NCBI GenBank assembly: GCA_030682655.1
Contig: JAUXNU010000182.1
Location: forward strand, 1-34,981
DNA from: Actinomycetota bacterium
Lineage (GTDB): Bacteria > Actinomycetota > Coriobacteriia > Anaerosomatales > JAUXNU01
Direction: 5' to 3'
Length of the DNA: 34,981 bases
In this document: positions 18,883 through 34,683 of the stretch, one piece after another
Layout: the number at the start of each line of letters is the position of its first letter
Numbering within the stretch: the stretch's first letter is position 1
The notes under the pieces: model-generated
Told to the model about the DNA's origin: nothing
What the model saw: only the letters and a program-made list of their open reading frames with translations
Databases searched by the model: none
Made by a program: the position numbers and the translations under genes

Positions 18883-18925
18883 CATCGGGCTGTGGCGCAG
18901 TTTGGTAGCGCACTTGACTGGGGGT
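18883..18925 (+). repeat. Left copy of 43-bp direct repeat (attL-like), truncated tRNA-Pro
   Basis: This is identical over 43 bases to 34144-34186. It holds the 5' half of tRNA-Pro (from 18886: acceptor 5' strand, D arm, anticodon 5' strand and the GGG anticodon loop). The sequence then turns to TTAACAGTCG and cannot form the anticodon 3' strand, T arm or acceptor 3' strand. The copy therefore cannot make a tRNA. Together with the right copy it marks the two ends of a 15,261-bp island. Confidence 0.93.
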
Positions 18926-18949
18926 TAACAGTCGTCCAGACGGGAACGC

Positions 18950-18983
18950 CCTGGTAGATGAGGAAAGCGACTCATCTGCCAGG
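18950..18983. repeat. Inverted repeat just inside the island's left end
   Basis: CCTGGTAGATGAG (18950-18962) and CTCATCTGCCAGG (18971-18983) pair over 13 bases with one G-T step and an 8-base loop. The recognisable transposase remnant begins exactly at its right edge. It may terminate transcription from the truncated tRNA or be part of a recombination site. Confidence 0.6.
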
Positions 18984-19206
18984 ACTGTCATGTGGCTGAT
19001 TCCGAGATGTTTGCCGAGCAGTCTTGACGACCAGTGCGTCACGCCCAGACGCTCGGGTGGGGGCGAGAGCGTGACCGCCAGGATGTCCTGACGGGTGGAT
19101 GCGGGCAGTCGCGGGGGCACTGCACCACCCGTGCCGGAAAGGGCTTCGCTCGAACGCGTCGCCACAGCACCTCGGCATCGTGCTCCGGCACCGTGAGGAC
19201 ACTCGT
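18980..19206 (-). pseudogene. IS630-family transposase remnant
   Basis: Two frames on the minus strand together give a decayed IS630 N-terminal region. About 19197-19105 encodes LTVPEHDAEVLWRRVRAK followed by a piece resembling the family's PARVVQ segment. About 19105-18980, in another frame, encodes TRQDILAVTL, PPPERLGVTHWSSRLL and KHLGISHMTV, the second helix-turn-helix. Some 60 residues between them and the entire DDE catalytic domain are missing. It is non-functional and suggests past insertion at the island edge. Confidence 0.7.
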
Positions 19207-19308
19207 GTGAGTCCACGGCCCCTTGCCCCAGACCACACGAAACCCGTCAAGATACTCCGGTCACACAACACTGGTCCTCGGTTGCCGTGCGTCGTCGAGT
19301 AACACGCA

Positions 19309-19337
19309 TTGACAACACGTGCTACCGAGACTAGTAT
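19309..19337 (+). promoter_or_regulatory. Near-consensus promoter of the island operon
   Basis: TTGACA at 19309-19314 and TAGTAT at 19332-19337 are exactly 17 bases apart. The predicted start near 19344 leaves a leader of about 115 bases before the first island gene at 19461. It is the best sigma-70-type promoter in the window and faces the ten co-directional island genes. Confidence 0.8.
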
Positions 19338-19383
19338 TGCCGAGGGCGTGGCACGAGTGGTCAATTCGTAGCACGCTGTGTCA
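19310..19383. promoter_or_regulatory. Imperfect dyad flanking the island promoter (candidate operator)
   Basis: TGACAACACGTGCTAC (19310-19325) and GTAGCACGCTGTGTCA (19368-19383) are inverted repeats with 13 of 16 positions matching, including a perfect 8-base core CGTGCTAC/GTAGCACG. The left arm overlaps the -35 and spacer, the right arm lies about 25-40 bases past the start. This is the layout expected for a repressor that blocks or loops the promoter. No regulator gene is seen in the island. Confidence 0.5.
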
Positions 19384-19460
19384 GGGCGGAGGCGCTTCGG
19401 GCTCGCTCGCTGGTGCTGGATGCTTGTACACGCCGACCGTTGCAGCGGGGAGTTCCCCTG

Positions 19461-20546
19461 ATGAGTAGCAGGAGATGGGTGCAGGTCGCCTCGGAATGGG
19501 TTCGGTCCAGACAAGGTCGATCATGTTACCAGGGGCTGGAGCCTCGCCGCGTGTGTGGAGGCATGTGGCTGCTGCTGGCCATCACAGTGAGTGTGAGTGC
19601 ACTGGGTGGGTGTACACCCGATCGCTTTCAAGGGGTCGTAGACGACGCAGGCAGAAGGGTTGAGATACCGAGTGCTCCACAGCGAATCATTGCGTTGGAC
19701 TCATCATCCATCGAGATACTGTTTGGGCTGGGTCTGGGTGACAGGGTCGTGGGCCGCCCGGAGCACCTCGAGTTCCCGCCCGAGGCTCTCAAGGTTGCCG
19801 ACGTCGGCGACATCAACAACCCCGACATCGAGAAGATGGTCGGGCTCAAACCCGATTTCGTCATGATCACAAGCTCAGAGGGCTTCCGGGACTGGGTTCC
19901 TCAGGCGGAAGAATCCGGTCTGAAAGTCCTGACCTTCGACTACCCGTCCGATCTTCATGAGGTCTTCGAGCATATCAAGCAAGTCGGGAAGATGGTCGGC
20001 TCGGGTGACGCTGCTGTTACGCTCGCGAGCGATCTTCAGCACCAAGCCGATGTGGTTGCGAGTCGCGTTGAGGGCCTGTCCGAAGGCGAGAAGCCGCGAG
20101 TTCTTGTCATCACCTACTTCGGAGCCAAGCTCGGTACGTACGGCGACAGATCTCGCGAAGGAGATCTCGTGAGGCTGACCGGCGGACGAAAAGTGCTCGC
20201 CGACAGACTACCCGCCTCCGAGGGGAAGTCCGCCTATTTCGGTTACGTCAGTCCTGAAGCGGTGGTCGAACAGAACCCGCAGGTCGTTGTCGTCCTGTAT
20301 TCGAAGCAGGGCGAAGACGACAAGAAAGCGGCTACCGCGGCAATCGAGCAAGTCGTGAGCACGGCGGGCTGGGGGGAGCTGGACGCAGTCAAGAATCGGC
20401 ACATCTATGCGATCGACCAGCAGCTAACGTGGGCCAATCCTCGAATCGTGCAGGGACTCGAGGCATTCTCGAGCGTCATACAGAAGACCGACAGGGTAAG
20501 GACGACGAACCACAATGAGCAAACGTCGGGGAGCCCAAGACCGTGA
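19461..20546 (+). CDS. BtuF/FecB-type substrate-binding lipoprotein
   Basis: The protein belongs to the cluster of binding proteins for haem, cobalamin and siderophores. The mature part starts VVDDAGRRVEIPSAPQRIIAL and continues with SSSIEILFGLGLGDRVVGR and LKPDFVMITS, all typical of the two-lobed helical-backbone fold. A lipobox LGGC with Cys51 follows a hydrophobic stretch from residue 35. The start at 19461 has GGGGAG 8 bases upstream but gives a long n-region; an ATG at 19563 gives a 17-residue signal with poor spacing. It has 361 residues. It overlaps the permease gene and is paralogous to the protein at 23735. Ligand unknown. Confidence 0.85.
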   Translation: MSSRRWVQVASEWVRSRQGRSCYQGLEPRRVCGGMWLLLAITVSVSALGGCTPDRFQGVVDDAGRRVEIPSAPQRIIALDSSSIEILFGLGLGDRVVGRPEHLEFPPEALKVADVGDINNPDIEKMVGLKPDFVMITSSEGFRDWVPQAEESGLKVLTFDYPSDLHEVFEHIKQVGKMVGSGDAAVTLASDLQHQADVVASRVEGLSEGEKPRVLVITYFGAKLGTYGDRSREGDLVRLTGGRKVLADRLPASEGKSAYFGYVSPEAVVEQNPQVVVVLYSKQGEDDKKAATAAIEQVVSTAGWGELDAVKNRHIYAIDQQLTWANPRIVQGLEAFSSVIQKTDRVRTTNHNEQTSGSPRP

Positions 20547-21679
20547 GTAGGACCGGTTCGCGAGGCACCGACACTGGGTGCTCCTCACAATCCACCGAGG
20601 CGGAGGTCATCCGCACGGCCGAGCCGCGAACCAGATCCGCGACCGTGCGCTGGCTTGGGGCTGTTGCCATCATCGCGATACCAGCGGTCATGATTCCGGC
20701 CATCATGGTCGGCCCGATGAAGATCCAAGTTGCGACAGTCGTCAATATCCTGCTCGGCCACATGCCATTCGTGAAGTCGTTGGTCACGCCTTCTTGGAAT
20801 GCCGAGCAGGTGATCGTGGTCATGAGTTTGAGACTGCCGAGGGTACTGCTGGCCTTCCTGGTGGGCGGGAGTCTTGCCGTGGTTGGAGCCGCGATGCAGG
20901 GCCTGTTTCGGAACCCGCTGGCTGAGCCGTACACGCTCGGAGTATCTGCTGGAGCCCTTTGCGGCGTTGCACTCGCGATGGTGATGGGTGTCGGGGTGGG
21001 GCTCTTCGGCTACTTCGCGGTACAGGGGATGGCCTTCCTTGGCGCCATGGGGGCGATTCTGCTTGTCTACTCCATTGCGAGAACCGGCAGGAGAGTCCGT
21101 TCAGAGACCTTGCTTCTCGCGGGTATCGCTATCGGTTTCTTGCTGCAGGCGGTCGTCTCCTTTCTCAAGTATGTGGCCCCTGCCGAGGTCACTAAGGACC
21201 TTGTTGTCTGGATCATGGGTTCGTTCTCGGCAGCGGGGTGGACGGATCTCAAGATCATGGCATTGCCGGCCATTCTCGGGGCGGGGGGAGTCATGTTGTT
21301 CTCCAAGGAGCTGAACGCTTTGTACTTCGGTGAGGAGACTGCGGCTCACCTCGGGATTGATGTTCAAGTGATCAAGTTGGTGATTATGGTCCTGAGCGCC
21401 ATCGTGACTGCGGCAACTGTTGCGGTCAGCGGAATCATCGGTTTCGTCGGTTTGCTCGTACCCCACCTGCTCAGAATGCTTGTCGGGGTTGACCACAGGG
21501 TCTTGCTCCCGGCGTGCGTCTTGGCGGGCGGTCTGTATCTCGTAGCCATAGACGCGGTGATTCGGGTAATCACGTATCCCGTCGAGATGCCGATCGGCAT
21601 CATCACTTCGCTAGTGGGAGTCCCCTACTTCATTTACCTGCTGAGAAAGAAAAAGACCTTCAGCTGGTGGGGTGAGTAG
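20543..21679 (+). CDS. FecCD-family ABC transporter permease
   Basis: This 378-residue protein has about nine to ten membrane helices and the FecCD/BtuC motifs: SLRLPRVLLAFLVGGSLAVVGAAMQGLFRNPLAEPYTLGVS is the family hallmark region (positions about 94-134), and GIIGFVGLLVPHLLRMLVG carries the loop that contacts the ATPase. It imports iron complexes, haem or cobalamin in relatives. It starts with GTG at 20543 overlapping the previous stop and ends at the start of the ATPase gene. Only one permease gene is present, so it should act as a homodimer. Confidence 0.92.
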   Translation: MSRTGSRGTDTGCSSQSTEAEVIRTAEPRTRSATVRWLGAVAIIAIPAVMIPAIMVGPMKIQVATVVNILLGHMPFVKSLVTPSWNAEQVIVVMSLRLPRVLLAFLVGGSLAVVGAAMQGLFRNPLAEPYTLGVSAGALCGVALAMVMGVGVGLFGYFAVQGMAFLGAMGAILLVYSIARTGRRVRSETLLLAGIAIGFLLQAVVSFLKYVAPAEVTKDLVVWIMGSFSAAGWTDLKIMALPAILGAGGVMLFSKELNALYFGEETAAHLGIDVQVIKLVIMVLSAIVTAATVAVSGIIGFVGLLVPHLLRMLVGVDHRVLLPACVLAGGLYLVAIDAVIRVITYPVEMPIGIITSLVGVPYFIYLLRKKKTFSWWGE

Positions 21680-21681
21680 TG

Positions 21682-22482
21682 ATGCTTGAAGCACAGGGCG
21701 TCGAAATCGGCTACGAATCGCGACCCGTCATACACAACGCGTCCTTCAAGCTGCATGAAGGCGAAGTCAGCGGGGTGATCGGACCCAACGGAACTGGGAA
21801 GACGACACTGCTCAAAGCGCTCAGCGCCGTTCTTCGCATCTCTGTCGGAAAGGTGGTTTGCGGGGCCGGGACCGAGCGTCGCGACTTGCACAGCATGACC
21901 AGAAAGGAAGTGGCCAGGCTCGTCGGCGTGGTGCCACAGCTTGCTGAGTATGGGGGTGCCTTCAAGGTCTTCGATGTCGTGCTCATGGGTCGCTATCCGC
22001 ATCTCGATGGCTTCTTCTCCTTCGAAACGCCGGAAGATGTGAGGATCTGCGAGGCGTCCATGGAGCTCGTGGGCGTCGGCCACCTTCGCGAACGTTCCAT
22101 GGGAGAGCTCAGTGGTGGCGAAAGGCAGCTGGTGGCTCTTTCGAGAGCGCTGGCTCAAGAAACGAAGATCCTCCTGCTTGACGAACCGACGGCTCATCTC
22201 GACCCGAAGTACCAGATGAGGGTGTTGGCTCTCTTGCGGGAGCTGACCCGGGACAGGCAGCTTACCTCTGTTGTTGTCCTTCACGACCTGAACTTGGCAG
22301 TCCGCTTCTGCGACCGGCTGCTTCTCTTGAATCGAGGATCGGTTCATGCCATCGGCACCACGTCAGAAGTCCTGACCCCCGAGAACATCGCCGATGTCTT
22401 CGAGGTCGATGCGGAAGTGACTGAGAGCGCAGACGGGTATCCGCACGTTCTGGTCAAAGGGGTCACGGACCAGCAGGTCTAG
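21682..22482 (+). CDS. FepC/BtuD-like ABC transporter ATP-binding protein
   Basis: The 266-residue ATPase has Walker A GPNGTGKTT, the signature LSGGERQLVALSRAL and Walker B KILLLDEPTAHLDPKYQ, followed by VVVLHDLNLAVRFCDR with the switch His. This is the iron-chelate/B12 type of importer ATPase. An ATG at 21682 is chosen; a GTG one codon upstream overlaps the permease stop. With the permease and either binding protein it forms a complete importer. Confidence 0.92.
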   Translation: MLEAQGVEIGYESRPVIHNASFKLHEGEVSGVIGPNGTGKTTLLKALSAVLRISVGKVVCGAGTERRDLHSMTRKEVARLVGVVPQLAEYGGAFKVFDVVLMGRYPHLDGFFSFETPEDVRICEASMELVGVGHLRERSMGELSGGERQLVALSRALAQETKILLLDEPTAHLDPKYQMRVLALLRELTRDRQLTSVVVLHDLNLAVRFCDRLLLLNRGSVHAIGTTSEVLTPENIADVFEVDAEVTESADGYPHVLVKGVTDQQV

Positions 22483-22514
22483 TAGTGGGTTTGATTGAGA
22501 TAGGAGGACAAGGG

Positions 22515-23681
22515 ATGTCGAGTCGCGTGAGAGCAAGATGGACCGTGTTGGCACTGTTCCTCGTCGGCGTGGTTGCGCCTGTGGCCTCTGGCTGCGCAGG
22601 TTCGAGTGCCAATGCCAGCAAGGAACCGGTTCAGCCGACGATCGAGCTGGTTCTTCCCGATGACTACGTCGAGGCCAACAATCTGGCAATGGGCGCCGTT
22701 ACGGCGGACAAGATCGCAGACACAGCTGTGACAGGCGCCAAACTCGTGGACGGTGCGGTCATAGGCGTGAAGATAGGCACCGGGGCCGTCACCTCTTCGA
22801 AGATAGCCACCGGGGCCGTCACCTACGGGAAGATCGCGGGCGGGGCTGTCACCTCTGGAGAGATCGCGGGCGGGGCCGTCACCTACGGGAAGATCGGCAA
22901 CGGGGCAGTGACGGGATCCTCGATCGTGAGAGGCACTATCGACACAGACAACATTGCCAGCGGTGCCATCACGACCACCGAGATTGAGGACAAGACGATT
23001 CGTCCCGCTGACATCGCTGACGGCGCCGTGACGAGGGCCAAGATCCAGAACAACGCGATCGTAGCGGACAAGATCGCGGACGGCGCCATCACAAGCTCGA
23101 AGATCAAGGCGTGCACGATCGTCGCGGAAGACATCGCTGCCGGTGCCATCACCAATATGGAGATTGCCGAGGGGACGATCCAGACGGCGAACCTCGCAGA
23201 CTACATCATCACACACGAGAAGATCGGTCCCAATGCCGTGAACTCCTATCAGATCCTCGACGGCACGATACAGACCACGGACATCGGCGCGGGTATGGTC
23301 TGGACTATCAACCTAGACGACGCGGCCGTCACGAACGCCAAGCTGGCAACAAGCGCTGTGGCGACCAAGAACATCCAGAATGGGGCAGTCACCAAGGATC
23401 TGTTGGCTGCCAGCATACCCGTCTCGTATACGGGTTCGGTCACCGTGCCGACTGACGCGCTCGGCACCGTGTCAGTGGCGATTGACTTCTCGGCCGCCAA
23501 GTTCACGGCCACCCCGATGATCATCGTCTGCTTGGGCGGCGTCAGTGATGACGACGCCAGCATCGTGAACGTCCAAGGAACGGCAACGAGCAGTGCCGTC
23601 GGCAAGGTGGGCTTCAAGGTCATGGCGTTCAGCGGGGCTGGTTCGACCGCCGTGGTCAACTGGGTAGCTATCGGTCGCTAG
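22515..23681 (+). CDS. Decapeptide-repeat lipoprotein with H-type-lectin-like C-terminus
   Basis: The signal peptide ends in a lipobox VASGC with Cys27. About residues 57-295 consist of some 24 decapeptide units of the form GAVTxxKIAx, a regular beta-solenoid-like stalk of the sort seen in phage and bacterial fibre proteins. The last 85 residues (TGSVTVPTDALGTVSVAIDF, then KFTATPMIIVCLGG and ending VVNWVAIGR) resemble the H-type lectin or fibre-tip fold by pattern; this is tentative. It has 388 residues. AGGAGG 7 bases before the ATG is the strongest ribosome site in the island, hinting at high expression. It sits between the importer and the second binding protein. Role inferred: surface capture of a ligand or surface. 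Confidence 0.75.
   Translation: MSSRVRARWTVLALFLVGVVAPVASGCAGSSANASKEPVQPTIELVLPDDYVEANNLAMGAVTADKIADTAVTGAKLVDGAVIGVKIGTGAVTSSKIATGAVTYGKIAGGAVTSGEIAGGAVTYGKIGNGAVTGSSIVRGTIDTDNIASGAITTTEIEDKTIRPADIADGAVTRAKIQNNAIVADKIADGAITSSKIKACTIVAEDIAAGAITNMEIAEGTIQTANLADYIITHEKIGPNAVNSYQILDGTIQTTDIGAGMVWTINLDDAAVTNAKLATSAVATKNIQNGAVTKDLLAASIPVSYTGSVTVPTDALGTVSVAIDFSAAKFTATPMIIVCLGGVSDDDASIVNVQGTATSSAVGKVGFKVMAFSGAGSTAVVNWVAIGR
22776..22925 (+). repeat. Five tandem 30-bp repeats inside the stalk region
   Basis: Units start at 22776, 22806, 22836, 22866 and 22896. The shared core is GGGGCCGTCACCT and the third base varies little, so these five units are far closer at DNA level than the other decapeptide units. 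Recent duplication or slippage is likely and copy number may vary between strains. Confidence 0.9.
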
Positions 23682-23734
23682 TTACCAGCACGGGGCTTGT
23701 TGTGGCACAGCGTCAACCGAAGGAGGTACTGTTC

Positions 23735-24913
23735 ATGCTTGGATTAACGCTTGCAGGGAAAGGGAAGACAGTCGCTATCTTGGCGGCGATCTGCACAGCT
23801 GTGCTGGCCATCGGGCTCTTCGGATACAGCCGCTTGGCCGGAGGGGGCTCCGCGAGTGAGGCGCCGCAGATTGTTTTCGCCGACAAGAATGGTGGATCAC
23901 TGGACGCGTTTGGGAGCGCTGACGCGCTTGGGAGCGCTGGCACGTCTGGGAGCGCTGGCACGTCTGGGAGCGGCTCCAAAGGAGGCTCCGGGGGTTGGAA
24001 CAACACAGTGGCAGGGGCCGGGAATCAAGGATCTTCGGAGAAGCCCGGTGGTGCGGGTTCGGAAACGAGGGTCGTCACTGACGACAGCGGAAGGGTCGTC
24101 AGGATTCCCGTCCAGCCCCAACGGATAGTCTGCATGGACACTGCGTCGACCGAGATACTGTTTGCCTGTGGACTTGGGAGCAAAGTAGTAGGCAGGGCCG
24201 ACAACCTCTCGTATCCTCCTGAAGCGCTCAGTCTTCCGGCCCTCGGCTCAATGGGCACTCCGAGTCTTGAGAAGATGGTCGAACTCAAGCCGGACTTGGT
24301 CGCGATCTCAGGCTCGACGACCTTCCGTCGCTGGGTTCCGGAGGCCGAGAGGATCGGGCTCACGGTGCTCTCCTACAACTACCCGCTTACCGTAGAGGGC
24401 ATCTTCGACATGATTGAACGCGTCGGTGACATGGGCGGCGCTCCTGACAGTGCGAGTGCCTTGGTAGCCGACCTTCGTGCAGAATGCACCAGGATCACCA
24501 ACGTCACCAACAAGTTGTCGGCCAGTCAGAAGCCCACCGTAGGGATCGTCTACTTCGGCTCAAACAAGATGTACACATGGGGCGATGAGTCCCGCGAAGG
24601 AGCTCTGCTGCGAGCCAGCGGTGGTAGAAACGTCTTCCCGGGCTCCACGCCCATGGGCACGATAGCTCCCGAGTCGCTCGTAGCGCAGAACCCCGATATC
24701 ATCATCGGGCTCTTCACGTTGGGGACCATGACCGAGGCCGAGGCGAAGGCTGCGACCATACAGAAGATCAAGACGCAGACAGGTTGGCAAACCATCAAGG
24801 CCGTGACACAGAACAAGGTCTATGCGATCCATTGGCAGGAGTGCTGGGCAGGTCCCAGGATCAAGCTGGGTATGGGCAATTTCTTCAAGGCCATACATCC
24901 GGAGCTCAACTAG
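23735..24913 (+). CDS. BtuF/FecB-type substrate-binding protein, membrane anchored
   Basis: The mature domain (from about residue 105) parallels the protein at 19461: VTDDSGRVVRIPVQPQRIVCM, STEILFACGLGSKVVGR and LKPDLVAISGS. Here the N-terminus is a single membrane helix (residues 12-31) with no lipobox, followed by a 65-residue Gly/Ser-rich spacer. It has 392 residues and extra Cys in the lobes (IVCMD, FACGLG) and WQECWAG near the end, absent from the paralogue, which could bind metal or haem. The ATG at 23735 has AAGGAGGT 7 bases upstream. One transporter served by two binding proteins implies two ligands or a relay. Confidence 0.85.
   Translation: MLGLTLAGKGKTVAILAAICTAVLAIGLFGYSRLAGGGSASEAPQIVFADKNGGSLDAFGSADALGSAGTSGSAGTSGSGSKGGSGGWNNTVAGAGNQGSSEKPGGAGSETRVVTDDSGRVVRIPVQPQRIVCMDTASTEILFACGLGSKVVGRADNLSYPPEALSLPALGSMGTPSLEKMVELKPDLVAISGSTTFRRWVPEAERIGLTVLSYNYPLTVEGIFDMIERVGDMGGAPDSASALVADLRAECTRITNVTNKLSASQKPTVGIVYFGSNKMYTWGDESREGALLRASGGRNVFPGSTPMGTIAPESLVAQNPDIIIGLFTLGTMTEAEAKAATIQKIKTQTGWQTIKAVTQNKVYAIHWQECWAGPRIKLGMGNFFKAIHPELN
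23912..23965 (+). repeat. Three 18-bp repeats encoding GSAGTS-type spacer
   Basis: GGGAGCGCTGGCACGTCT occurs at 23930-23947 and 23948-23965, with a diverged copy at 23912-23929. They lengthen the flexible spacer between the membrane helix and the binding domain of the preceding gene's product. Confidence 0.85.
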
Positions 24914-24958
24914 TCGCGAGAAGCCGGAAGGTCTCCCGACGACAGAAGGGGTACGCAA

Positions 24959-27334
24959 TTGAGAATCACATGCATAGTTTGGGGCTCTCAGATGCCCTTG
25001 ATGCTTCGAGCTGCGAAGAGAATCAGCGGAATAGAATTCTCCATGTTCTCGTCCAAGATCTTGGGGCGACAACCGGAGCTGGTCGATGAGGCGCTGGCGG
25101 CAATCGATTGTGCTGACCTGGTCATGCTGTATCGCTCGAGTGAGCCGGTCTGGGATCGGATCGAAGCCAAGGTGAGGGAGGTTGGGGAGAAGAAACCCAT
25201 CATCTCTCTCGGGTCCGATCCGGGTCTTTGGCTTCTGTCCACCGTCGAGCCCACTGTGGTGGAGACATGCAGCCTCTACCTCACCCACGGAGGAGAGGAG
25301 AACTGCTTCCAACTGTTCAACTTCCTGGCCAGCGAGGTCTTGAAGACCGGCTGCTACTACCTGCCGCCGAGATCAGAGCCTTGGGAGGGTGTGTGGCATC
25401 CTCGAGCGAAGCTGCACTTCGAGCGGACCGAGGACTACCTGGCTTGGTACCAACCGAAGCCGGCTGCGTTCGTGGGTTTGCTCACGAGTCGCTCGGCCTG
25501 GCTGTCGGGAGACCTGAGTGTGGAGACAGCCCTGATTGAGGAACTGGAACTCAAGGGCCTCAACGTGATACCGGCGTTCTGCTATTCGCTGAGCGACGAG
25601 AGCCTGGGCACTAGATCTATGGCTGGTGTCGTCGAAGACTTCTTCATCGTTGACGGTGAACTTCGGATCGACGCGCTCGTCAAGCTGGTCTTCTTCTTCC
25701 TCGGTTCGGCAAGGGGGGCTTCCGGGAAGCAGGACGGCGCTCTACCTGGAGTGGAACTCTCCAAGCGCATGAACATCCCGATCTTCGAGCCCGTGGCTTC
25801 CTACTATCGGACGGTCGAGGACTGGGCCGACGACCGGCAGGGCTTGTCGTCCGAGGTTGGATGGTCGATCGCGATGCCCGAGTTCGAGGGAGTGATCGAA
25901 CCTCTCATCATCGGTGGCCTGAAGAAGGAGCTCGATGAAGAGACAGGCGCGCAGGTCGACATAAGGGTGCCCGTGGGAGATCGATGTGCCAAGGTCGCTG
26001 CTCGCATCAGCCGGTGGTTGGCGTTGCGCAACAAACCTGTCGAGGAGCGCAAGATAGCCTTCATTCTGCACAACAACCCGTGTGCCAGCGTGGAGGCGAC
26101 CGTCGGTGCGGGAGCACATCTCGACACCCTTGAGAGCGTCTCGCGGATTCTTCACCAGATGAAGAACGCGGGGTATCGGGTCGATCCACCTGCGGACGGC
26201 AAAGCACTCATCGAGATGATCATGGAGAAGAAGGCTATCTCGGAGTTTCGCTGGACGCCCGTGGAGGAGATCGTTGCGAGAGGTGGAGCGCTTGCCTGCG
26301 TCGATGTCGACCGCTACAAAGAGTGGTTCGAACAGCTGGGTCCTGGCGTGAGAGAGAGGATCTGCGAAGCTTGGGGCGATCCCCCGGGCGAGTTGAAAGA
26401 CGGGGTTCCTCCAGCCATGGTGCATGAGGGCCGCATCGTAGTCACCGGCATAGAGCTGGGAAGCGCCGTCGTCTGCGTGCAACCGAAACGTGGATGTGCG
26501 GGCGCCCGCTGCGACGGTCAAGTCTGCAAGATCCTTCACGATCCGGACGTGCCCCCTCCACATCAGTATCTTGCGACCTATCGCTATCTGGAGGACGAGT
26601 TCGGCGCGGACGCAATAGTGCATGTGGGAACCCACGGGAATCTTGAGTTCCTGCCTGGGAAGAGTGTCGGTCTTTCCGCAGACTGCTGTCCCGACATCAA
26701 CATCGGGACCCTGCCGCACCTCTACGTATACAACGCGGACAATCCGCCGGAAGGGACGATAGCCAAGCGAAGGAGCTATGCGACACTCGTCGATCACATG
26801 CAGACGGTTCTCGTCGAAGGCGGGCTCTACGAGGAGTTGGCGGCGCTCGACGAGGCGCTTGCCGAGTACGAGAAGACGCGCCTCGCCGATCCGGGTAGGG
26901 CTCACGTCCTGCAGCACGTGATTCTGGAGGACTTGGAGAACGCTGATCTTCTCTCAGCACTTGGCCCCATCGAGGGACTTCCCTTCGACGAGATTGTGAG
27001 ATGTGCACACGAAGCCCTCTCCCTCATTCGAACGACGCAAGTTCAGGACGGGATGCACATCTTCGGCGATCTGCCGAAGGAAGACCGGCTTGTCGATCTG
27101 ATCGCATCGGTAATGCGGTATGACGACGGCGAGAAGGCGTCTCTGAGGAGTGTCGTGCTGGAGCTGATGGGAATCGATCTCGCCTACGCACTCGAGCACC
27201 AGGGCGAGGTGCACTCAGGGTTCCGGATCAGCTACGGGCGGATTCTGGAGCAGAGCCAGGACCATGCGAAGGCCCTCGTGAGGGAATTCCTCGGGCTTCC
27301 GGGCGCCGAACAAGACTCAGCGATGTTGGGGTGA
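24959..27334 (+). CDS. CobN/HmuS-family metal chelatase, N-terminal and central part
   Basis: This 791-residue protein matches the first 60 per cent of CobN/ChlH large chelatase subunits. The central signature HVGTHGNLEFLPGK (His555, His559, Glu563, Lys568) precedes LSADCCPDINIGTLPHLYVYN and EGTIAKRRSYATLVDH. A Cys-rich stretch (CVQPKRGCAGARCDGQVC, spacing C-x6-C-x4-C-x4-C) lies 30 residues before it, where plant ChlH has GYEGDP. It starts with TTG behind GAAGGGG; no ATG fits. The rest of the chain is the next gene. CobN inserts cobalt into a corrinoid; HmuS relatives remove iron from haem; which applies is unknown. Confidence 0.88.
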   Translation: MRITCIVWGSQMPLMLRAAKRISGIEFSMFSSKILGRQPELVDEALAAIDCADLVMLYRSSEPVWDRIEAKVREVGEKKPIISLGSDPGLWLLSTVEPTVVETCSLYLTHGGEENCFQLFNFLASEVLKTGCYYLPPRSEPWEGVWHPRAKLHFERTEDYLAWYQPKPAAFVGLLTSRSAWLSGDLSVETALIEELELKGLNVIPAFCYSLSDESLGTRSMAGVVEDFFIVDGELRIDALVKLVFFFLGSARGASGKQDGALPGVELSKRMNIPIFEPVASYYRTVEDWADDRQGLSSEVGWSIAMPEFEGVIEPLIIGGLKKELDEETGAQVDIRVPVGDRCAKVAARISRWLALRNKPVEERKIAFILHNNPCASVEATVGAGAHLDTLESVSRILHQMKNAGYRVDPPADGKALIEMIMEKKAISEFRWTPVEEIVARGGALACVDVDRYKEWFEQLGPGVRERICEAWGDPPGELKDGVPPAMVHEGRIVVTGIELGSAVVCVQPKRGCAGARCDGQVCKILHDPDVPPPHQYLATYRYLEDEFGADAIVHVGTHGNLEFLPGKSVGLSADCCPDINIGTLPHLYVYNADNPPEGTIAKRRSYATLVDHMQTVLVEGGLYEELAALDEALAEYEKTRLADPGRAHVLQHVILEDLENADLLSALGPIEGLPFDEIVRCAHEALSLIRTTQVQDGMHIFGDLPKEDRLVDLIASVMRYDDGEKASLRSVVLELMGIDLAYALEHQGEVHSGFRISYGRILEQSQDHAKALVREFLGLPGAEQDSAMLG

Positions 27335-28911
27335 TGAAGGTGTCTGATGGCCTCATGATTCAGCAGGATGCAAGTGACAGTCTGGAAGAGAGCGCGCGCA
27401 AGGTGCTGGGAGAGCGGCTGCTCCATCGCGGCGCGATCTCCAAACTCCATGATCTTCGGGCTCGGGTGCTCGACTTGGCGCGTCGCGTCGATGAGTCGGA
27501 TGAGATTGGCGCTCTGCTGAATGGCTTCTCTGGCGGTTATGTCGAGAGCGGTCCGTCCGGTCTCATAACGCGCGGGCGTGATGACGTCTTGCCGACAGGG
27601 AGGAACTTCTACTCCTTGGATCCCCAGCGTGTGCCAACGAAGGCGGCCTGGCGGGTCGGGCAGAGACTGGCCGAGGCCTTGATCGCCAAACATCTGGACG
27701 AGGAGGGGCGCTATCCAGAGAATGTCGCCATCTACTGGATGTGTACGGACATCATGTGGGCAGATGGCGAGGGTATGTCGCAGATATTCGCCCTCCTTGG
27801 AGTAGAGCCGATTTGGAAACCGAACGGTCGATTGCATGGATTCGAGATCACGCCTTCGTCGGAATTGGGGCGTCCAAGAATCGACGTGACGATCAGGGTC
27901 TCAGGAATAACGAGAGACAACTTCCAAGTCTGCATGGATGTCGTCGACGATGCCGTGCAGGCAGTTGCTGCCCTGGATGAGCCACCTGAGGACAACTACG
28001 TTCGAAAGCACGTGCTCGAGAGAGTGCTGCGTGACAAGGACAGTGCTCCCTCCGAAGCAGAATTGAGAAAGGCCGCACGGCGCATCTTCTGTGCCAGGCC
28101 GGGGTCCTACCAGGCGGGAGTCCAGCTCGCGGTCTATGCCTCCGCTTGGAAGGAAGAGAAGGATCTTGCTGAGATCTTCATCAAGTGGAACGGCTATGCG
28201 TACGGACGTGGTGTCTGGGGCGAGGAGTCCTTCCTCGAGCTTGCCCAGAGTCTGCAGACCGTGGACATCACCTTCAACAAGGTTGTCACCGATGAGTCAG
28301 ACCTCTTCGCCTGCTGCTGTCATTTCGGCACACATGGTGGACTGACCGCGGCCGCACGCCACTTCTCAGGAAGAGAGGTGAAGGGCTACTACGGTGACAC
28401 GAGGGATCCGCAGCACACCGAGGTGAGGGACCTTGCGGACGAGATCCGCCGGATTGCCAGAGCCAAGCTGCTCAATCCGAAATGGATCGAGGGGATGAAG
28501 CGGCACGGCTACAAGGGTGCGGGCGACATCAGCAAGCGAGTCGGTCGAGTCTACGGATATGCGGCTTCGACCCGTGAGGTCGACGACTGGATCTTCGATG
28601 ACATCGCGAAGACCTTCGTGATCGATCAGGAGAACAGGGAGTTCTTCGAAGAGAACAATCCATGGGCGATGGAGGAGATTGCACGGAGGTTGCTCGAGGC
28701 GAAAGAGAGAGGTCTGTGGGATGCGGATCCCGACGTGCTTGACGAACTGAGGAGCCAGTACCTGGAGATCGAAGGCTGGATCGAGGATCGCATGGATGGG
28801 ATAGAAGGTGACTTCCAAGGTGGTGCGACCGATATCGTTGAGTTCGACGATGCAGAGGGCTGGGGAGAGCAGATAGAGGCGATTAGGGATGTGCTAGATG
28901 CCAGGGAATGA
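27334..28911 (+). CDS. CobN/HmuS-family metal chelatase, C-terminal part
   Basis: The 525-residue protein corresponds to the C-terminal third of CobN: PTGRNFYSLDPQRVPTKAAW, then FHGG-like region, then NPKWIEGMKRHGYKGAGDIS and EVDDWIFDDIAKTFVID, ending RLLEAKERGLWDAD. Together the two genes make about 1,316 residues, the length of one CobN. Start and stop share TGATG, so translation is coupled and the split looks genuine, not a frameshift. In place of the usual YYQ-HGG, this has ACCCHFGTHGG with Cys327-329 and His330, a striking metal-ligand candidate. It overlaps the next gene by 14 bases. Confidence 0.88.
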   Translation: MKVSDGLMIQQDASDSLEESARKVLGERLLHRGAISKLHDLRARVLDLARRVDESDEIGALLNGFSGGYVESGPSGLITRGRDDVLPTGRNFYSLDPQRVPTKAAWRVGQRLAEALIAKHLDEEGRYPENVAIYWMCTDIMWADGEGMSQIFALLGVEPIWKPNGRLHGFEITPSSELGRPRIDVTIRVSGITRDNFQVCMDVVDDAVQAVAALDEPPEDNYVRKHVLERVLRDKDSAPSEAELRKAARRIFCARPGSYQAGVQLAVYASAWKEEKDLAEIFIKWNGYAYGRGVWGEESFLELAQSLQTVDITFNKVVTDESDLFACCCHFGTHGGLTAAARHFSGREVKGYYGDTRDPQHTEVRDLADEIRRIARAKLLNPKWIEGMKRHGYKGAGDISKRVGRVYGYAASTREVDDWIFDDIAKTFVIDQENREFFEENNPWAMEEIARRLLEAKERGLWDADPDVLDELRSQYLEIEGWIEDRMDGIEGDFQGGATDIVEFDDAEGWGEQIEAIRDVLDARE

Positions 28912-29893
28912 CCCGGTCGTGAAGGTGACGAATCTGACCAGGAGATTCAAGGACTTGGTTGCGGTCGACGGAGTCAGTTTCGACATTGCGTCGGGTGAGA
29001 TATTCGGTCTCTTGGGCCCGAATGGCGCCGGCAAGACGACCACGGTCCTGATGCTTGCAACCCTCTTGAGGCCGACCTCCGGCGAGGCTTTTGTGGCTGG
29101 CCTGGATGCCTTCCGACGTCCCAAGGAGGTCAGGCGAAGGATCAGCTATGTCCCCCAGGGGATGGCGGTTGATTTCGCACTCACTGGTCGTGACAACTTG
29201 GACTACTACGCGTCGCTCTTTCGGATTCGGGGTCGAGACAAGATCGCCCGAATCGATCAGGTCATCGAGTTCCTTGGCCTCGAAAGCGTGATCGATCAGA
29301 GGGTGCAGTTCTTCTCTGGGGGGATGAGGCGGAGACTCGAACTCGCTCAGGCCATGCTCACCAGACCGAAGGTTCTCTTCTTGGACGAGCCGACCCTTGG
29401 CCTAGATGTCGCCGCTCGCCGTCGGCTGTGGGAGCTGATCGGAAACATGACGAGCGACGGGATCGCATGTTTGCTGACGACACACTACATGGATGAAGCC
29501 GAGGCGCTATGCAATCGAGTTGCCTTCATCTCGCATGGCAAGATCGCGCGATGCGGCACTCCAAGCGATCTTGTTGCCGAGATCGGGGGTGAGGCGATTC
29601 AGATCGATCTTTGCCGCCCCTTGTTCTCAGACAGTGTCATGAAGGATGTCGCGCGAGTCGCTGATGTCAGTGTCGAAGGACTGCGGCTGACGCTCGTTGC
29701 CAATGGTGGAAGGCACGCCTTGCCGAAGATCGCCGGAATCCTGCACTCGCATGATGTCGAGGTTGAGAGCATCTCTATCAGGCGGCCCAAACTCGAAGAC
29801 GTGTACTTAGAGTGTGTCGACGGTTCGCAGGAACTCGTGAGCGCCTCAGAAGGGGCGGAGCTCAAGCGGATGGCCAGAAGGAGCATGAGTTGA
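28898..29893 (+). CDS. DrrA-like ABC-2 transporter ATP-binding protein
   Basis: The 331-residue ATPase has Walker A GPNGAGKTT at residues 40-48, signature FFSGGMRRRLELAQAML and Walker B VLFLDEPTLGLDV, with the C-terminal extension of DrrA/CcmA exporters. Its start overlaps the end of the chelatase gene and its stop overlaps the permease start, so it belongs to the same operon. Members export antibiotics, lipids or haem-like compounds; the substrate here is not shown. Confidence 0.9.
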   Translation: MPGNDPVVKVTNLTRRFKDLVAVDGVSFDIASGEIFGLLGPNGAGKTTTVLMLATLLRPTSGEAFVAGLDAFRRPKEVRRRISYVPQGMAVDFALTGRDNLDYYASLFRIRGRDKIARIDQVIEFLGLESVIDQRVQFFSGGMRRRLELAQAMLTRPKVLFLDEPTLGLDVAARRRLWELIGNMTSDGIACLLTTHYMDEAEALCNRVAFISHGKIARCGTPSDLVAEIGGEAIQIDLCRPLFSDSVMKDVARVADVSVEGLRLTLVANGGRHALPKIAGILHSHDVEVESISIRRPKLEDVYLECVDGSQELVSASEGAELKRMARRSMS

Positions 29894-30636
29894 TTGCCGC
29901 ACTCGATGTCGTGAGCCATGTCTGGCGCAGGGACAGAACCATCCAATTCAGGAACAAGACAGGCTTGGTGGCGGCGATCGTCACGCCTGTGGCCTGGCTT
30001 GCGGTCGTGGGCTCCCTGCCCATACACATGGAGGGCATACGTTATCTCGACTATGTAGCGCCAGCGATCGTCGTGATGTCCGTGCTATTCCCTTGTCTGC
30101 AAGGAGGCTTGCTGACCTCCTCGGACAGACAACTGGGTCATCTCAAGAAGGCATTCGCCACGCCCGCGCCCAGGTATCTGATGGCCATCGGCAAGACGCT
30201 GGCGGCCAGCACCAAGGCGTTCTTGCAGTTCGGGGCCGTCCTGTTGACCGCCGTTTTGCTCGGCGTGAAGTTCAGCGGTGGGCTTGCTGGCTTCTTGGTC
30301 ATCTTGGTCTACACGATGTGCATTGCGCTGGGTCTCTCGGCGCTGTCCGTATCGATCGCTTTCGTGGTGGGAGACATGCACGCTTTTGGCTCGACCATGA
30401 GCCTGATCAGCCTCCCGCTCTTCATGGGAAGTTCGGCTCTCATGCCGATCGATAAGATGCCCTGCTGGCTGGCCTCCTTTGCCAGGGTCAATCCGCTGAC
30501 ATACGCAATCGGCGCGACCCGGGACATCATGCTCTCGGGGGACACCTCCAACGCGGTCTGGGGAATCTGCCTGGCCTGTGTCTTCTTGGTCGCAGCGATG
30601 TCCCTGTGCGCCTATCTGTTCGAGAGGGACAACTGA
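29890..30636 (+). CDS. ABC-2 type transporter permease (DrrB-like)
   Basis: The 248-residue protein has six hydrophobic segments and the ABC-2 pattern, including LKKAFATPAPRYLMAIGKTLAAS and, near the end, MPCWLASFARVNPLTYAIGATRD. A TTG start at 29890 is chosen: it has AAGGAG 6 bases upstream and overlaps the ATPase stop. The longer open frame upstream lies inside the ATPase gene. It pairs with the preceding ATPase as an exporter. Its stop and the next start share TGATG. Confidence 0.85.
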   Translation: MIAALDVVSHVWRRDRTIQFRNKTGLVAAIVTPVAWLAVVGSLPIHMEGIRYLDYVAPAIVVMSVLFPCLQGGLLTSSDRQLGHLKKAFATPAPRYLMAIGKTLAASTKAFLQFGAVLLTAVLLGVKFSGGLAGFLVILVYTMCIALGLSALSVSIAFVVGDMHAFGSTMSLISLPLFMGSSALMPIDKMPCWLASFARVNPLTYAIGATRDIMLSGDTSNAVWGICLACVFLVAAMSLCAYLFERDN

Positions 30637-32699
30637 TGAGTGAACGTGTGAATCCGAGGGCGGATGCTGGATTCAGTTCGATGTATCCGTTCACAGCCAT
30701 CGTGGGACAGGGGTCGATGAAGAGAGCTCTGATCCTCAATGCCATCGATCCCAAGATAGGCGGCGTTCTGATCAGAGGTGACAAGGGGACGGCCAAGTCG
30801 ACGGCAGCGAGGGCTTTTGCGGGCTTGCTTCCGGATATCGAGGTGGTTGACGGTTGCTCGTACGGCTGCGACCCCGCGAGTCGTACGAGCATGTGTCGTG
30901 ACTGCGCGGAAGAAATGGGGCGGACTGGACGCGTGACCGCAAGCAGGAGAAGGGTGAGTCTGATCAACCTGCCCCTGAATGCCACAGAGGACAACGTTGT
31001 GGGCAGTATCAACCTCGAGCTTGCCATCAAGGAAGGCGTGAAGAGCTTCGAGCCAGGGGTTCTCGCTCTCGCTCACCGGGGCGTTATCTACATCGATGAG
31101 GTCAACCTCTTGGACGATCACATCGTTGACGTCCTGCTGGATGTCGCGTCCAGCGGCGTGAACAGGGTCGAACGCGAGGGAGTCTCCTTTGCGCATCCCG
31201 CTGAGATCGTCCTTGTGGGGTCGATGAATCCCGAAGAAGGGGAGTTGAGACCGCAACTCCTTGACCGCTTTGGCCTCTGTGTCCAAGTCGAAGGTGTCTT
31301 CGAGCTTGACGGGCGTGCAGAGCTCGTGAGGCGACGAGAGGCCTACGACGCAGAGCCCGCGGGTTTCGCCGAGAGATGGGAGACCGATGAGGCGGCGTTG
31401 AGGGAGAGGATCGTCCGTGCTCGCCAAGCAGTCGCGGCGGTCACGATTGCCGACGAGCTCATCAGTCTCATTGCCGCCGTCTGTTTGGAGAACTCGGTGA
31501 GCGGTCATCGGGCCGATGTCGTCATGGAACGTACCGCGAAAGCGATTGCGGCCTGGGAAGGCCGAGTTCGAGTGGCCGAGGAAGATATCTTGGCGGCGGC
31601 AGAGCTGGTGTTGCCTCACCGGCGGCGTGACCATGCTCCGTCTCAGCCGCATCAGGAGCATCAGCACGAGCATCAGGATGAAGACCAGCAGCAGGAAGAG
31701 GAGGAAGCGGCGAAGGGTGATTCAGCGCCCCGCGAGGAAGCCGCGGCTCCCTCTAGTCAAGACCGTGATGCACAAGGCGAGATGGAACAGTCGCGGGATC
31801 CGCAAGGCGCGAAGGGCGAAACGGAATCGTCCGATGGTCAGATGCAGGACAAGGTCTTTTCGACAGGGAAGCCGTATCAGGTACGAAGAATCGCTCCCAA
31901 GGAGAAGAGGGCGCTTCGTCGCGGCTCAGGCCGAAGGAGTAGAGCCAGGACGGCCTCGAAGTCGGGGCGGTACGTCAAGGCCGTCCAGAGAAGAGACAGC
32001 CGGGACATCGCAATCGATTCCACGCTGCGAGCGGCTGCACCCTATCAGCTCGCGAGGAGAGAGAGGGCGCTCGAGAAGGGGCTTGCCGTTCTGATCGAGA
32101 CTGCCGACATTCGCGACAAGGTCAGAGAGAAACGGGTGGGCAATTTCCTCATCTTCGTTGTCGATGCGAGCGGCTCAATGGGAGCGCAACGCAGGATGAT
32201 TGAGACGAAAGCTGCGATCCTCTCTCTTCTCATTGATGCATATCAGAAGAGGGACAGGGTGGGAATGGTGGTCTTCAGGGGCAATTCCGCCGAACTCCTG
32301 CTGCCGCCTACCAACAGCGTGGAGCTGGCACTGAGGAAGCTGGAAGAGATGCCTGTTGGCGGGAAGACCCCACTGTCATCTGGGTTGGCAAGGGCCTATG
32401 AGGTAGCCAAGACGCACTTGCGGAAGGACCCCGACACTCCACCACTCCTCGTCCTCATCACGGATGGAAGAGCCAACGTCAGCATGAGTGACATGAAGCC
32501 CCTTGATGAAGCCCGGAAGGTCGCGATAGCCATCGAGGAGGAGGAAGACATCAAGACCTTGGTGATTGACACCGAGAAGGACGGGTTGATCAGGCTTGGG
32601 ATGGCTGCGGAAATCGCTCGCGTGCTTGGGGGTCAATACGCCAAGGTCGAAGAGCTTAGAGCTGAGGGCATCGTGGGTGCGGTGATGAGTGTCATCTAG
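30636..32699 (+). CDS. ChlI-ChlD fusion: AAA+ and VWA domain chelatase subunit
   Basis: Residues 1-330 or so are a ChlI-type AAA+ ATPase: Walker A RGDKGTAKST (about 47-56), Walker [13 protein letters not shown], arginine finger region [14 protein letters not shown] Cys motif at 74, 78, 87 and 90 (C-x3-C-x8-C-x2-C) is inserted after Walker A. Then comes an acidic and His/Gln-rich linker (about 335-390: HQEHQHEHQDEDQQQ) and a VWA domain with the MIDAS DASGSMG starting at Asp510. It has 687 residues. It is the D-type subunit that couples ATP hydrolysis to the CobN-like chelatase. TGATG couples it to the exporter gene. Confidence 0.9.
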   Translation: MSERVNPRADAGFSSMYPFTAIVGQGSMKRALILNAIDPKIGGVLIRGDKGTAKSTAARAFAGLLPDIEVVDGCSYGCDPASRTSMCRDCAEEMGRTGRVTASRRRVSLINLPLNATEDNVVGSINLELAIKEGVKSFEPGVLALAHRGVIYIDEVNLLDDHIVDVLLDVASSGVNRVEREGVSFAHPAEIVLVGSMNPEEGELRPQLLDRFGLCVQVEGVFELDGRAELVRRREAYDAEPAGFAERWETDEAALRERIVRARQAVAAVTIADELISLIAAVCLENSVSGHRADVVMERTAKAIAAWEGRVRVAEEDILAAAELVLPHRRRDHAPSQPHQEHQHEHQDEDQQQEEEEAAKGDSAPREEAAAPSSQDRDAQGEMEQSRDPQGAKGETESSDGQMQDKVFSTGKPYQVRRIAPKEKRALRRGSGRRSRARTASKSGRYVKAVQRRDSRDIAIDSTLRAAAPYQLARRERALEKGLAVLIETADIRDKVREKRVGNFLIFVVDASGSMGAQRRMIETKAAILSLLIDAYQKRDRVGMVVFRGNSAELLLPPTNSVELALRKLEEMPVGGKTPLSSGLARAYEVAKTHLRKDPDTPPLLVLITDGRANVSMSDMKPLDEARKVAIAIEEEEDIKTLVIDTEKDGLIRLGMAAEIARVLGGQYAKVEELRAEGIVGAVMSVI

Positions 32700-32769
32700 C
32701 GACGTGCCTGGTTGCAGGTCGCGAATCGAAGAGCGTTGGCGAGCTGAACACAAGTCGAAGGGCAGACGA

Positions 32770-33807
32770 ATGTCATACCACAACCGAGTGACGTACCCGT
32801 TCACCGCGATCGTCGGTCAGGAGGGAATGAGAAGAGCCCTGATTCTGAATGCGATCAACCCAAAGATAGGTGGCGTTCTGATCAGGGGCGAGAAGGGAAC
32901 TGCCAAGTCCACCGCAGCCAGGGCGCTGGCAGATCTTCTTCCCGAGATCGAGGTGGTTGAGGGGTGTGTCTACGGCTGCGATCCAGCTGACGCGAACAGC
33001 ATGTGTGAGGAATGCAGGGAGAAGACCACAGATGGCTCACAGCCGAACTCCACTTTCCGGAAGACGCGTGTAGTCGATCTGCCGGTCAGCTCCACGGAGG
33101 ACCGTGTGGTTGGGACGCTCGATATCGAGCACGCGATACGAAGGGGAGAGAAGAGGTTCGAACCAGGAATACTGGCTGAGGCACACAGGGGCATCCTCTA
33201 CGTCGATGAGGTGAATCTTCTCGACGACAGCCTCGCTGACCTGATGCTCGACACCGCGGCGATGGGCGTGAACGTGGTGGAGAGGGAGGGAGTCTCCCAC
33301 TGGCACCCCGCTCGATTCATGCTCGTGGGCACGATGAATCCCGAAGAGGGCGAGTTGCGACCACAGCTTCTGGATCGCTTTGGTCTGTGCGTCGAGATCG
33401 AGGGCATAGTTGATGCCGACCTGAGGGTGGAAGTCGTCAAGCGGCGCTCGCGATACGAAGCAGATCCGGTCGCGTTCGCCATCGAGTGGGAGGAGGCCCA
33501 AGAGGCGGAACGAGGGAGAATCCTATCGGCTACGCGGATGCTGAACGATATCGAGATCTCTGATGAGATGCTGAAGTTGGTCGCAACGATAGCGATAGAA
33601 TCGGGGGTTCAAGGTCACCGGGCGGACATTGTCATGACGAAGACGTCCAAGACGCTCGCGGCGCACCATGGGCGCGCCGTCGTTTCCAAGGAAGACGTGA
33701 GGGAAGCGGCGGATCTCGCGCTGCTTCATCGCACGAGAAGGAAACCGTTTGAAGAGATGGGTCTGGATCGTCGACAACTCGACGCGGTCGTGTCCGAAGC
33801 ATCCTAG
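32770..33807 (+). CDS. ChlI-type AAA+ chelatase ATPase
   Basis: This 345-residue protein is the separate I subunit. Walker [11 protein letters not shown] is at about 39-48, Walker [13 protein letters not shown] and [19 protein letters not shown] follow. It has the same Cys motif as its neighbour (Cys66, 70, 79, 82). Its sequence closely parallels the AAA+ half of the preceding gene, so the two are paralogues and could form a mixed ring. The ATG at 32770 follows GAAGG; an upstream GTG overlapping the previous stop is less likely because it adds residues outside the family. It is the last gene of the island operon. Confidence 0.9.
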
Positions 33808-33917
33808 AGCCCGTGTCGGTCTGACTCCCTGGACGCCACGGCCGGTGCTGTGGTTTCCTGACTGTCTGTCCGTTTCGAGATCCTTCGTTATGCCGAGTGC
33901 TTCCACGACTGTGCAGG

Positions 33918-33974
33918 TGGCACTTGTCGCTGGGCGACATGTCTCCAGCCGAGGTCGAGCGGAGACTGGAGTAG
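33918..33974 (+). pseudogene. Possible IS3-family transposase tail remnant
   Basis: An 18-residue stretch ending at a stop reads WHLSLGDMSPAEVERRLE, which resembles the conserved C-terminal segment H-S-x-L-G-x-x-S-P-x-E-F-E of IS3-group transposases. The rest of 33808-34045 has no recognisable gene. The match is short and could be chance. Confidence 0.3.
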
Positions 33975-34045
33975 GGTTGGCTCTTGGCCGCCGTGTCATG
34001 GTCCTAAGGTATCAACGAGAACGGGGCAACTCCATCGTCAGGGGA

Positions 34046-34075
34046 TGGACACGAAGGTTGTACCGCCCCTATACT
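34046..34075 (+). promoter_or_regulatory. Promoter now driving the intact tRNA-Pro
   Basis: TGGACA at 34046-34051 and TATACT at 34070-34075 are 18 bases apart. The predicted start near 34082 lies about 65 bases before the tRNA. It lies inside the island, so the tRNA is transcribed from imported DNA. Confidence 0.55.
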
Positions 34076-34088
34076 TCCCCAGGCGGCA

Positions 34089-34128
34089 GGAAACGCTGGC
34101 TGATTCCCCAGCAGCCAACAGCGTTTCC
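34089..34128. repeat. Hairpin upstream of the intact tRNA-Pro
   Basis: GGAAACGCTG (34089-34098) and CAGCGTTTCC (34119-34128) pair perfectly, and an inner GGCTG/CAGCC pair extends the stem with a small bulge. It lies between the putative promoter and the tRNA, so it would be in the tRNA 5' leader or act in recombination. It has no T tract, so it is a poor terminator. Confidence 0.6.
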
Positions 34129-34143
34129 GCAGGCAGAACGTAT

Positions 34144-34223
<80 letters not shown>

Positions 34224-34389: not shown

Positions 34390-34683
34390 ATGACTGACAC
34401 GGATGAGATGATCAGGGCGATTGGCCAGCACGCGGGGGAGATACGGCGTGACTTCGGCGTTGCGCGCCTCGGTGTATTCGGTTCGCGCGCTCGCGGAGAT
34501 GCCGCGGTCGATAGTGATCTCGATGTGCTCGTGGAATTCGAGCGCCCGACATTCCGGAACTACATGGGTCTCAAGCACTATCTCGAGCAGTTGCTTGGCG
34601 TGACAGTCGATCTCGTGAGTGCGGCTGCCCTGAAGCCGATGCTGAAGGAGCATGTGATGCGCGAGGTCAAGTATGTCGCGTGA
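34390..34683 (+). CDS. mntA: MNT-type nucleotidyltransferase (antitoxin)
   Basis: The 97-residue protein has the minimal nucleotidyltransferase signature GSRARGDAAVDSDLDVLVEF, with the G-S-x-x-R-G and D-x-D motifs. MntA-type proteins inactivate their HEPN toxin partner by attaching nucleotides. The start at 34390 follows a GGGAGGC sequence. A TATACT hexamer at 34348-34353 may be part of its promoter. It overlaps the hepT gene by 11 bases, the standard MNT-HEPN arrangement. Confidence 0.88.
   Translation: MTDTDEMIRAIGQHAGEIRRDFGVARLGVFGSRARGDAAVDSDLDVLVEFERPTFRNYMGLKHYLEQLLGVTVDLVSAAALKPMLKEHVMREVKYVA

Follow-up and report, generated by a model that had tools for sequence, protein, structure and literature searches.

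A fibre-like lipoprotein gene within a probable tetrapyrrole importer island at a tRNA-Pro gene of an actinobacterium

The window, that is, the whole stretch of 34,981 nucleotides that was analyzed, comes from a bacterium of the class Coriobacteriia and includes an island of 15.3 kb (18886-34223) located between a half-copy and an intact copy of a tRNA-Pro gene. All features of the island described here are on the forward strand. The left boundary is the 5' half of tRNA-Pro (18886..18928, attL-like), and the right boundary is the intact tRNA-Pro(GGG) gene (34147..34223, attR-like), at whose 3' end the similarity to another genome stops exactly. No integrase gene was recognized inside the island, and it includes no phage genes. 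Outside of the island, the window encodes a Mutator-family transposase at its left end (187-1413), and a small nucleotidyltransferase (NTP_transf_2) just past the tRNA gene (34393-34683), which together with the frame after it is perhaps an MNT/HEPN pair.

A second copy of the island was found from the MAG E21_maxbin.048 (genome G058, locus L003), which belongs to another family of the same order. It has the same gene order, including the gene analyzed below, and is flanked by the same half-tRNA and the same tRNA. Orthologues flanking the island are about 0.65 identical to those of G058, and this value jumps to 1.00 directly past the left boundary. At the DNA level, the two genomes are nearly 100% identical over the left end of the island (18929-20500), which suggests a recent local recombination or transfer. 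The first gene of the operon shows zero synonymous changes between the copies while the rest of the island mostly differs by 10-20%; thus, the island is a mosaic. Directly beyond tRNA-Pro in G058, a large serine recombinase is encoded (L008:2486-4009); it is absent at that position in the window.

The genes of the island are arranged as an operon with intergenic gaps of -82 to 53 bases. Their order is substrate-binding protein 1, a FecCD permease, an importer ATPase, the stalk lipoprotein which is the subject of this analysis, substrate-binding protein 2, a CobN-like chelatase in two parts, an ABC exporter pair, ChlID, and ChlI. Binding protein 1 (19413..20546) is a lipoprotein with a Peripla_BP_2 domain and about 100% DNA identity with its counterpart in L003. 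Family matches identified the FecCD/BtuC-type permease (20543..21679) and the importer ATPase of the heme/corrinoid type (21679..22482). Binding protein 2 (23735..24913), whose likely start is the ATG at 23735, consists of an N-terminal membrane anchor, a tether of about 80 residues rich in Gly, Ser, Ala, and Asp, and a BtuF/HmuT-like Peripla_BP_2 domain. The tether region (23735-24090) is repeat-rich and differs in length between the copies, and DASGN-like units are observed in the relative. Family matches also identified the N-terminal part (24959..27334) and the C-terminal part (27331..28911) of the CobN-like chelatase, a DrrA-type ABC ATPase with an ABC-2 permease (28898..30636), and the ChlID-type (TIGR02442, over its cut-off) and ChlI-type AAA+ chelatase subunits (30606..33807). 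In both copies, the chelatase (24959-28911) is divided at the same point, where its two parts overlap by GTGA, either as a split gene or at a frameshift site. The DrrA-type exporter, encoded between CobN and ChlID, perhaps exports the ring or the metal.

Several candidates for the ligand of this importer were considered. The binding proteins resemble BtuF, HmuT, and IsdE, with no equivalog cut-off reached, and no riboswitch or other RNA that could name the ligand was found upstream of the operon. The two chelatase parts match CobN with e-values of 1.8e-69 and 1.9e-104, and HmuS with 1.3e-44 and 2e-55. An identity as the haem de-chelatase HmuS, which acts without ATP (PMC12583661), was rejected because the chelatase is nearer to CobN among the relatives with solved structures and is accompanied by ChlID and ChlI. 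CbiC is absent from the four genomes checked, and it is therefore unlikely that CobN-ChlID takes part in making corrinoids de novo; a role of CobN in de novo B12 synthesis was rejected on this basis. Haem auxotrophy as a motive was rejected because ferrochelatase is present. The best guess for the ligand is a metal tetrapyrrole acquired from outside, whether corrinoid, haem, or another tetrapyrrole. CobN of this type was found from 3 of the 69 genomes of the order. As judged from the sequences, the gene set is most likely a mobile tRNA-Pro island that serves to import a tetrapyrrole-type compound and to handle its metal.

The stalk gene (22515..23681) starts with ATG and is free of stop codons over 388 residues. 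Its position between the ATPase and binding protein 2, within the importer operon, agrees with the original prediction. The homologue in the second island copy (L003:10001-11200) is 77% identical, and these two are the only readable copies, as the contig of a third genome breaks before the stalk gene. AGGAGG is located 7 nt upstream of the ATG. The Shine-Dalgarno pairing is strong, as had been noticed from the sequence, although it is not the single best in the operon: it reaches -13.1 kcal/mol for the stalk gene and -13.8 kcal/mol for binding protein 2, with -1 to -9 kcal/mol for the remaining genes. Both copies begin with a signal peptide and the lipobox cysteine of bacterial lipoproteins (residues 1-27; 22515..22595). 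By inspection, the predicted lipidated residue is Cys27, preceded by VASG in the window copy and by AASG in the L003 copy. The lipobox is plausible, with A instead of L at position -3, which is allowed but less usual. The whole protein matches no Pfam or NCBIfam family, and the Pentapeptide repeat profile of Pfam has no match in it.

Downstream of the signal peptide, residues 53-302 (22671..23420) comprise decapeptide repeats with the consensus T-x-x-K-I-A-x-G-A-V. The array itself had been recognized earlier with an estimate of about 24 units; the exact count is 25 in the window protein and 26 in the homologue, and one whole unit has been gained or lost between the two island copies. The 25 units are in one register with zero indels. 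Position 5 is I/L in all 25 units and position 10 is V/I in 24 of them. A column with I/L in 24 or more of the 25 units arose in none of 2000 shuffles. The identity autocorrelation at lag 10 is about 0.33 against 0.09 in shuffled sequences (z = 13). The identity at lag 20 (0.387) exceeds those at lag 10 (0.338) and lag 30 (0.300), with P = 0.015 as estimated by shuffling whole units, and the homologue shows a similar excess at lag 20 (P = 0.047). The full-length structural model is of low confidence (pLDDT 47), and its strand spacing is 20 residues. A coil of 20 residues is thus weakly favoured by the period-20 signal together with the spacing in this low-confidence model.

The repeats match tail fibre families of PHROG, with the best e-value 3.6e-37, and were matched in 153 phage records. 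Phage tail fibres (PHROG 892, 28766, and 21412, and cyanophage fibres) contain the same repeat, in which I/L and V/I are spaced by five residues, and the window protein shares with them both this repeat and a tip of the fibre type. It differs from them in that it is lipid-anchored, bacterial, and encoded among importer and chelatase genes without phage structural genes. In a PDB sequence search with the window protein, orf16 of the entry 9eg4 weakly matched the repeats (E 0.006), and no paper naming this entry was found in the literature. The best structural matches of the full-length model were tailspike beta-helices, which are compatible with, and no stronger an argument for, a beta-solenoid stalk. 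If each coil holds 20 residues, the 250 residues at 0.48 nm per coil would form a solenoid only about 6 nm long. Gram-positive walls are 20-40 nm thick. Whether the stalk reaches through the wall would depend on its fold; an extended trimeric fibre would exceed 6 nm.

The C-terminal 86 residues (303-388; 23421..23678) constitute a tip assigned to the H-type-lectin/gp53 group by profiles and fold search. The PDB sequence search with the window protein alone gave no meaningful match for the tip. At the profile level, the window tip reaches only 13.3 bits for Gp53-like_C (PF21882), below the Pfam cut-off, and the L003 tip reaches 15.6 bits for H_lectin (PF09458), below its curated cut-off of 24 bits, while the homologous tip in L046, a relative from another actinobacterial genome, exceeds that cut-off with 25.6 bits. 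Tip homologues were gathered by a phylum-wide search, and a profile built from five tips matched only four H-type lectins among the PDB sequences, each of them individually weak. A class-wide profile search with the two island tips yielded only marginal further matches. The structural model of the tip (pLDDT 72) was more confident than the full-length model. The top three PDB matches of the tip model with Foldseek were SLL-2, Helix pomatia agglutinin (HPA), and HAA (probability 0.98-1.00, E 0.0066-0.013, TM 0.44-0.56), followed by phage fibre tips, pyocin fibres, and discoidin. Among viral models, those ranking high included, by model name, an H-type lectin, a minor tail protein, and a tail fibre. 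The support for the H-type lectin beta-sandwich fold is moderate and not decisive, and the assignment of the tip to an H-type-lectin/gp53-type domain has good but not final support. With these results, the lipid anchor, the fibre-like repeats, the lectin-like tip, and the likeness to phage tails that had been proposed for this protein are supported by the Cys27 lipobox, the PHROG matches, and the predicted fold.

The window tip shares its fold and tip-group profile with the PF09458 and PF21882 proteins, such as SLL-2, HPA, and PA6 gp17. It differs in that its own scores are below the Pfam cut-offs and in that the aromatic/His loop of HPA has no counterpart. The TWHN of this loop, which presumably represents the sugar-binding residues, aligns with AFSGAGST in the window protein, and no residues of a GalNAc/Gal-binding loop are present there. 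No ligand-binding residues could be assigned.

The likeness to phage fibres also bears on whether the protein derives from a phage and hinders the adsorption of phages, as a decoy or receptor mask. The stalk and the tip both resemble phage fibres, and one related tip matches minor tail proteins of Cutibacterium phages, namely PA6 gp17, at its lectin domain, and the relatives of gp17. This explanation is nevertheless highly improbable, since the island lacks phage genes, the stalk gene has its own lipobox and strong Shine-Dalgarno site, and no direct phage relative of the window tip was found in phage records or viral contigs.

The operon context resembles the Hmu system of Bacteroidota (HmuY, HmuS, and HmuTUV); both include a FecCD-type importer, a chelatase of the CobN superfamily, and a surface lipoprotein in the operon. 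A role like that of HmuY, in which the tip itself would bind haem or another tetrapyrrole and pass it to the binding protein, could draw on the BtuF/HmuT-like binding proteins and the CobN/HmuS-superfamily chelatase of the operon, and on Met335 and Met370, which are kept in both island copies. HmuY of P. gingivalis binds haem via two histidines (PMC12106395). The tip contains no histidine and the repeats a single one (His234), the predicted fold of the tip is that of H-type lectins, and the HmuY family of Pfam gave no match up to E 1 with the whole protein or up to E 10 with the tip. The present system further differs from the Hmu system in its chelatase, which is nearer to CobN than to HmuS and has ChlI and ChlD as partners, in its monoderm host, and in the lack of a TonB receptor in the operon. 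The comparison with HmuY in the original prediction is therefore not upheld, and there is very little chance that the tip acts as a haemophore.

Proteins of similar architecture are encoded by other actinobacterial genomes. The secreted proteins L045, L046/L047, and L044 also combine the repeats and a related tip with a signal peptide or lipobox, but they are not part of an importer operon and their repeat number varies widely. In genome G601, two contig ends (L047:1-1089 and L046:3-1325) share repeat units and apparently represent one gene, which encodes a lipoprotein with many more repeats than the window protein and a related tip. L047 shows a weak match to Pentapeptide_4. Because lipoproteins with the same repeats and tip lack an importer nearby, the architecture alone does not imply uptake, and the G601 protein is the strongest counter-evidence to a role of the stalk in docking for the importer.

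The main rival to such a role is that the protein is a general surface adhesin travelling with the island, which attaches to surfaces, cells, or wall glycans and whose place in the operon serves expression only. It is a plausible if less favoured explanation. Same-architecture proteins such as L047/L046, with far more repeats, are located beside unrelated genes, and many secreted proteins of actinobacteria carry these repeats together with other C-terminal domains. An adhesin merely travelling along is less expected from the position of the stalk gene, which is in the middle of the importer between the ATPase and binding protein 2 in both copies rather than at its edge, and from the rarity of such proteins in the order (2 of 61 genomes).

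The comparison of the two island copies revealed different rates of evolution. The dN/dS is 0.62 for the tip, 0.37 for the repeats, and 0.30 for the binding domain of binding protein 2, while it is 0.12-0.16 for the permease, the ATPase, and CobN (Fisher P against these three, about 1e-5 for the tip and 3e-5 for the repeats). The stalk and binding protein 2 are the fastest-evolving proteins of the island and have its strongest Shine-Dalgarno sites. The rates are thus raised jointly in the exposed parts, in agreement with either changing surface partners or weaker constraint; the raised dN/dS of the tip, still below 1, may mean relaxed constraint only. The rates are also relevant to the possibility that the stalk is a wall-embedded spacer or scaffold of about 6 nm, which arranges both binding proteins around the permease and whose tip is a trimerization knob without an external ligand. 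Trimers are common among H-type lectins and fibre tips, and the estimated solenoid is short if the coils hold 20 residues. Such a scaffold is improbable, since a purely structural knob would not be expected to be the fastest-changing part, as the tip is.

The favoured, still tentative, reading is that the stalk is an accessory docking component of a tetrapyrrole-type importer island. The export signal, the repeats, the tip family, the membership in the operon and the island, and the co-inheritance with the importer, all readable from the sequences of the two copies, are consistent with it. In this mechanism, the lipoprotein would be exported and stay anchored to the outer side of the monoderm cell's membrane, where it is presumably exposed at the surface. 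The repeats would form a beta-structured, fibre-like stalk, in whatever oligomeric state, presenting the H-type-lectin-like tip. The tip may dock onto a glycan, a glycoconjugate, or a carrier near the cell, and the docking would raise the local concentration of the ligand, putatively a tetrapyrrole, around the flexibly tethered binding protein 2. This protein would then load the FecCD permease, and CobN-ChlID would act on the ring inside the cell. A more specific version, in which the importer island recruited a phage-fibre-like receptor that uses its variable tip to capture a carrier or surface and so supplies the tethered binding protein, is rather doubtful.

No description of a fibre-assisted ABC importer was found in the literature. 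What is new here is the genetic setting, a fibre-like lipoprotein inside an uptake island. The island combines importer, chelatase, and exporter in one compact mobile unit, carried by genomes in which corrinoid synthesis lacks the CbiC step. Should the stalk take part in uptake, a monoderm bacterium, which has no outer-membrane receptor, would be using a phage-type receptor-binding fibre as the capture arm of its ABC importer.
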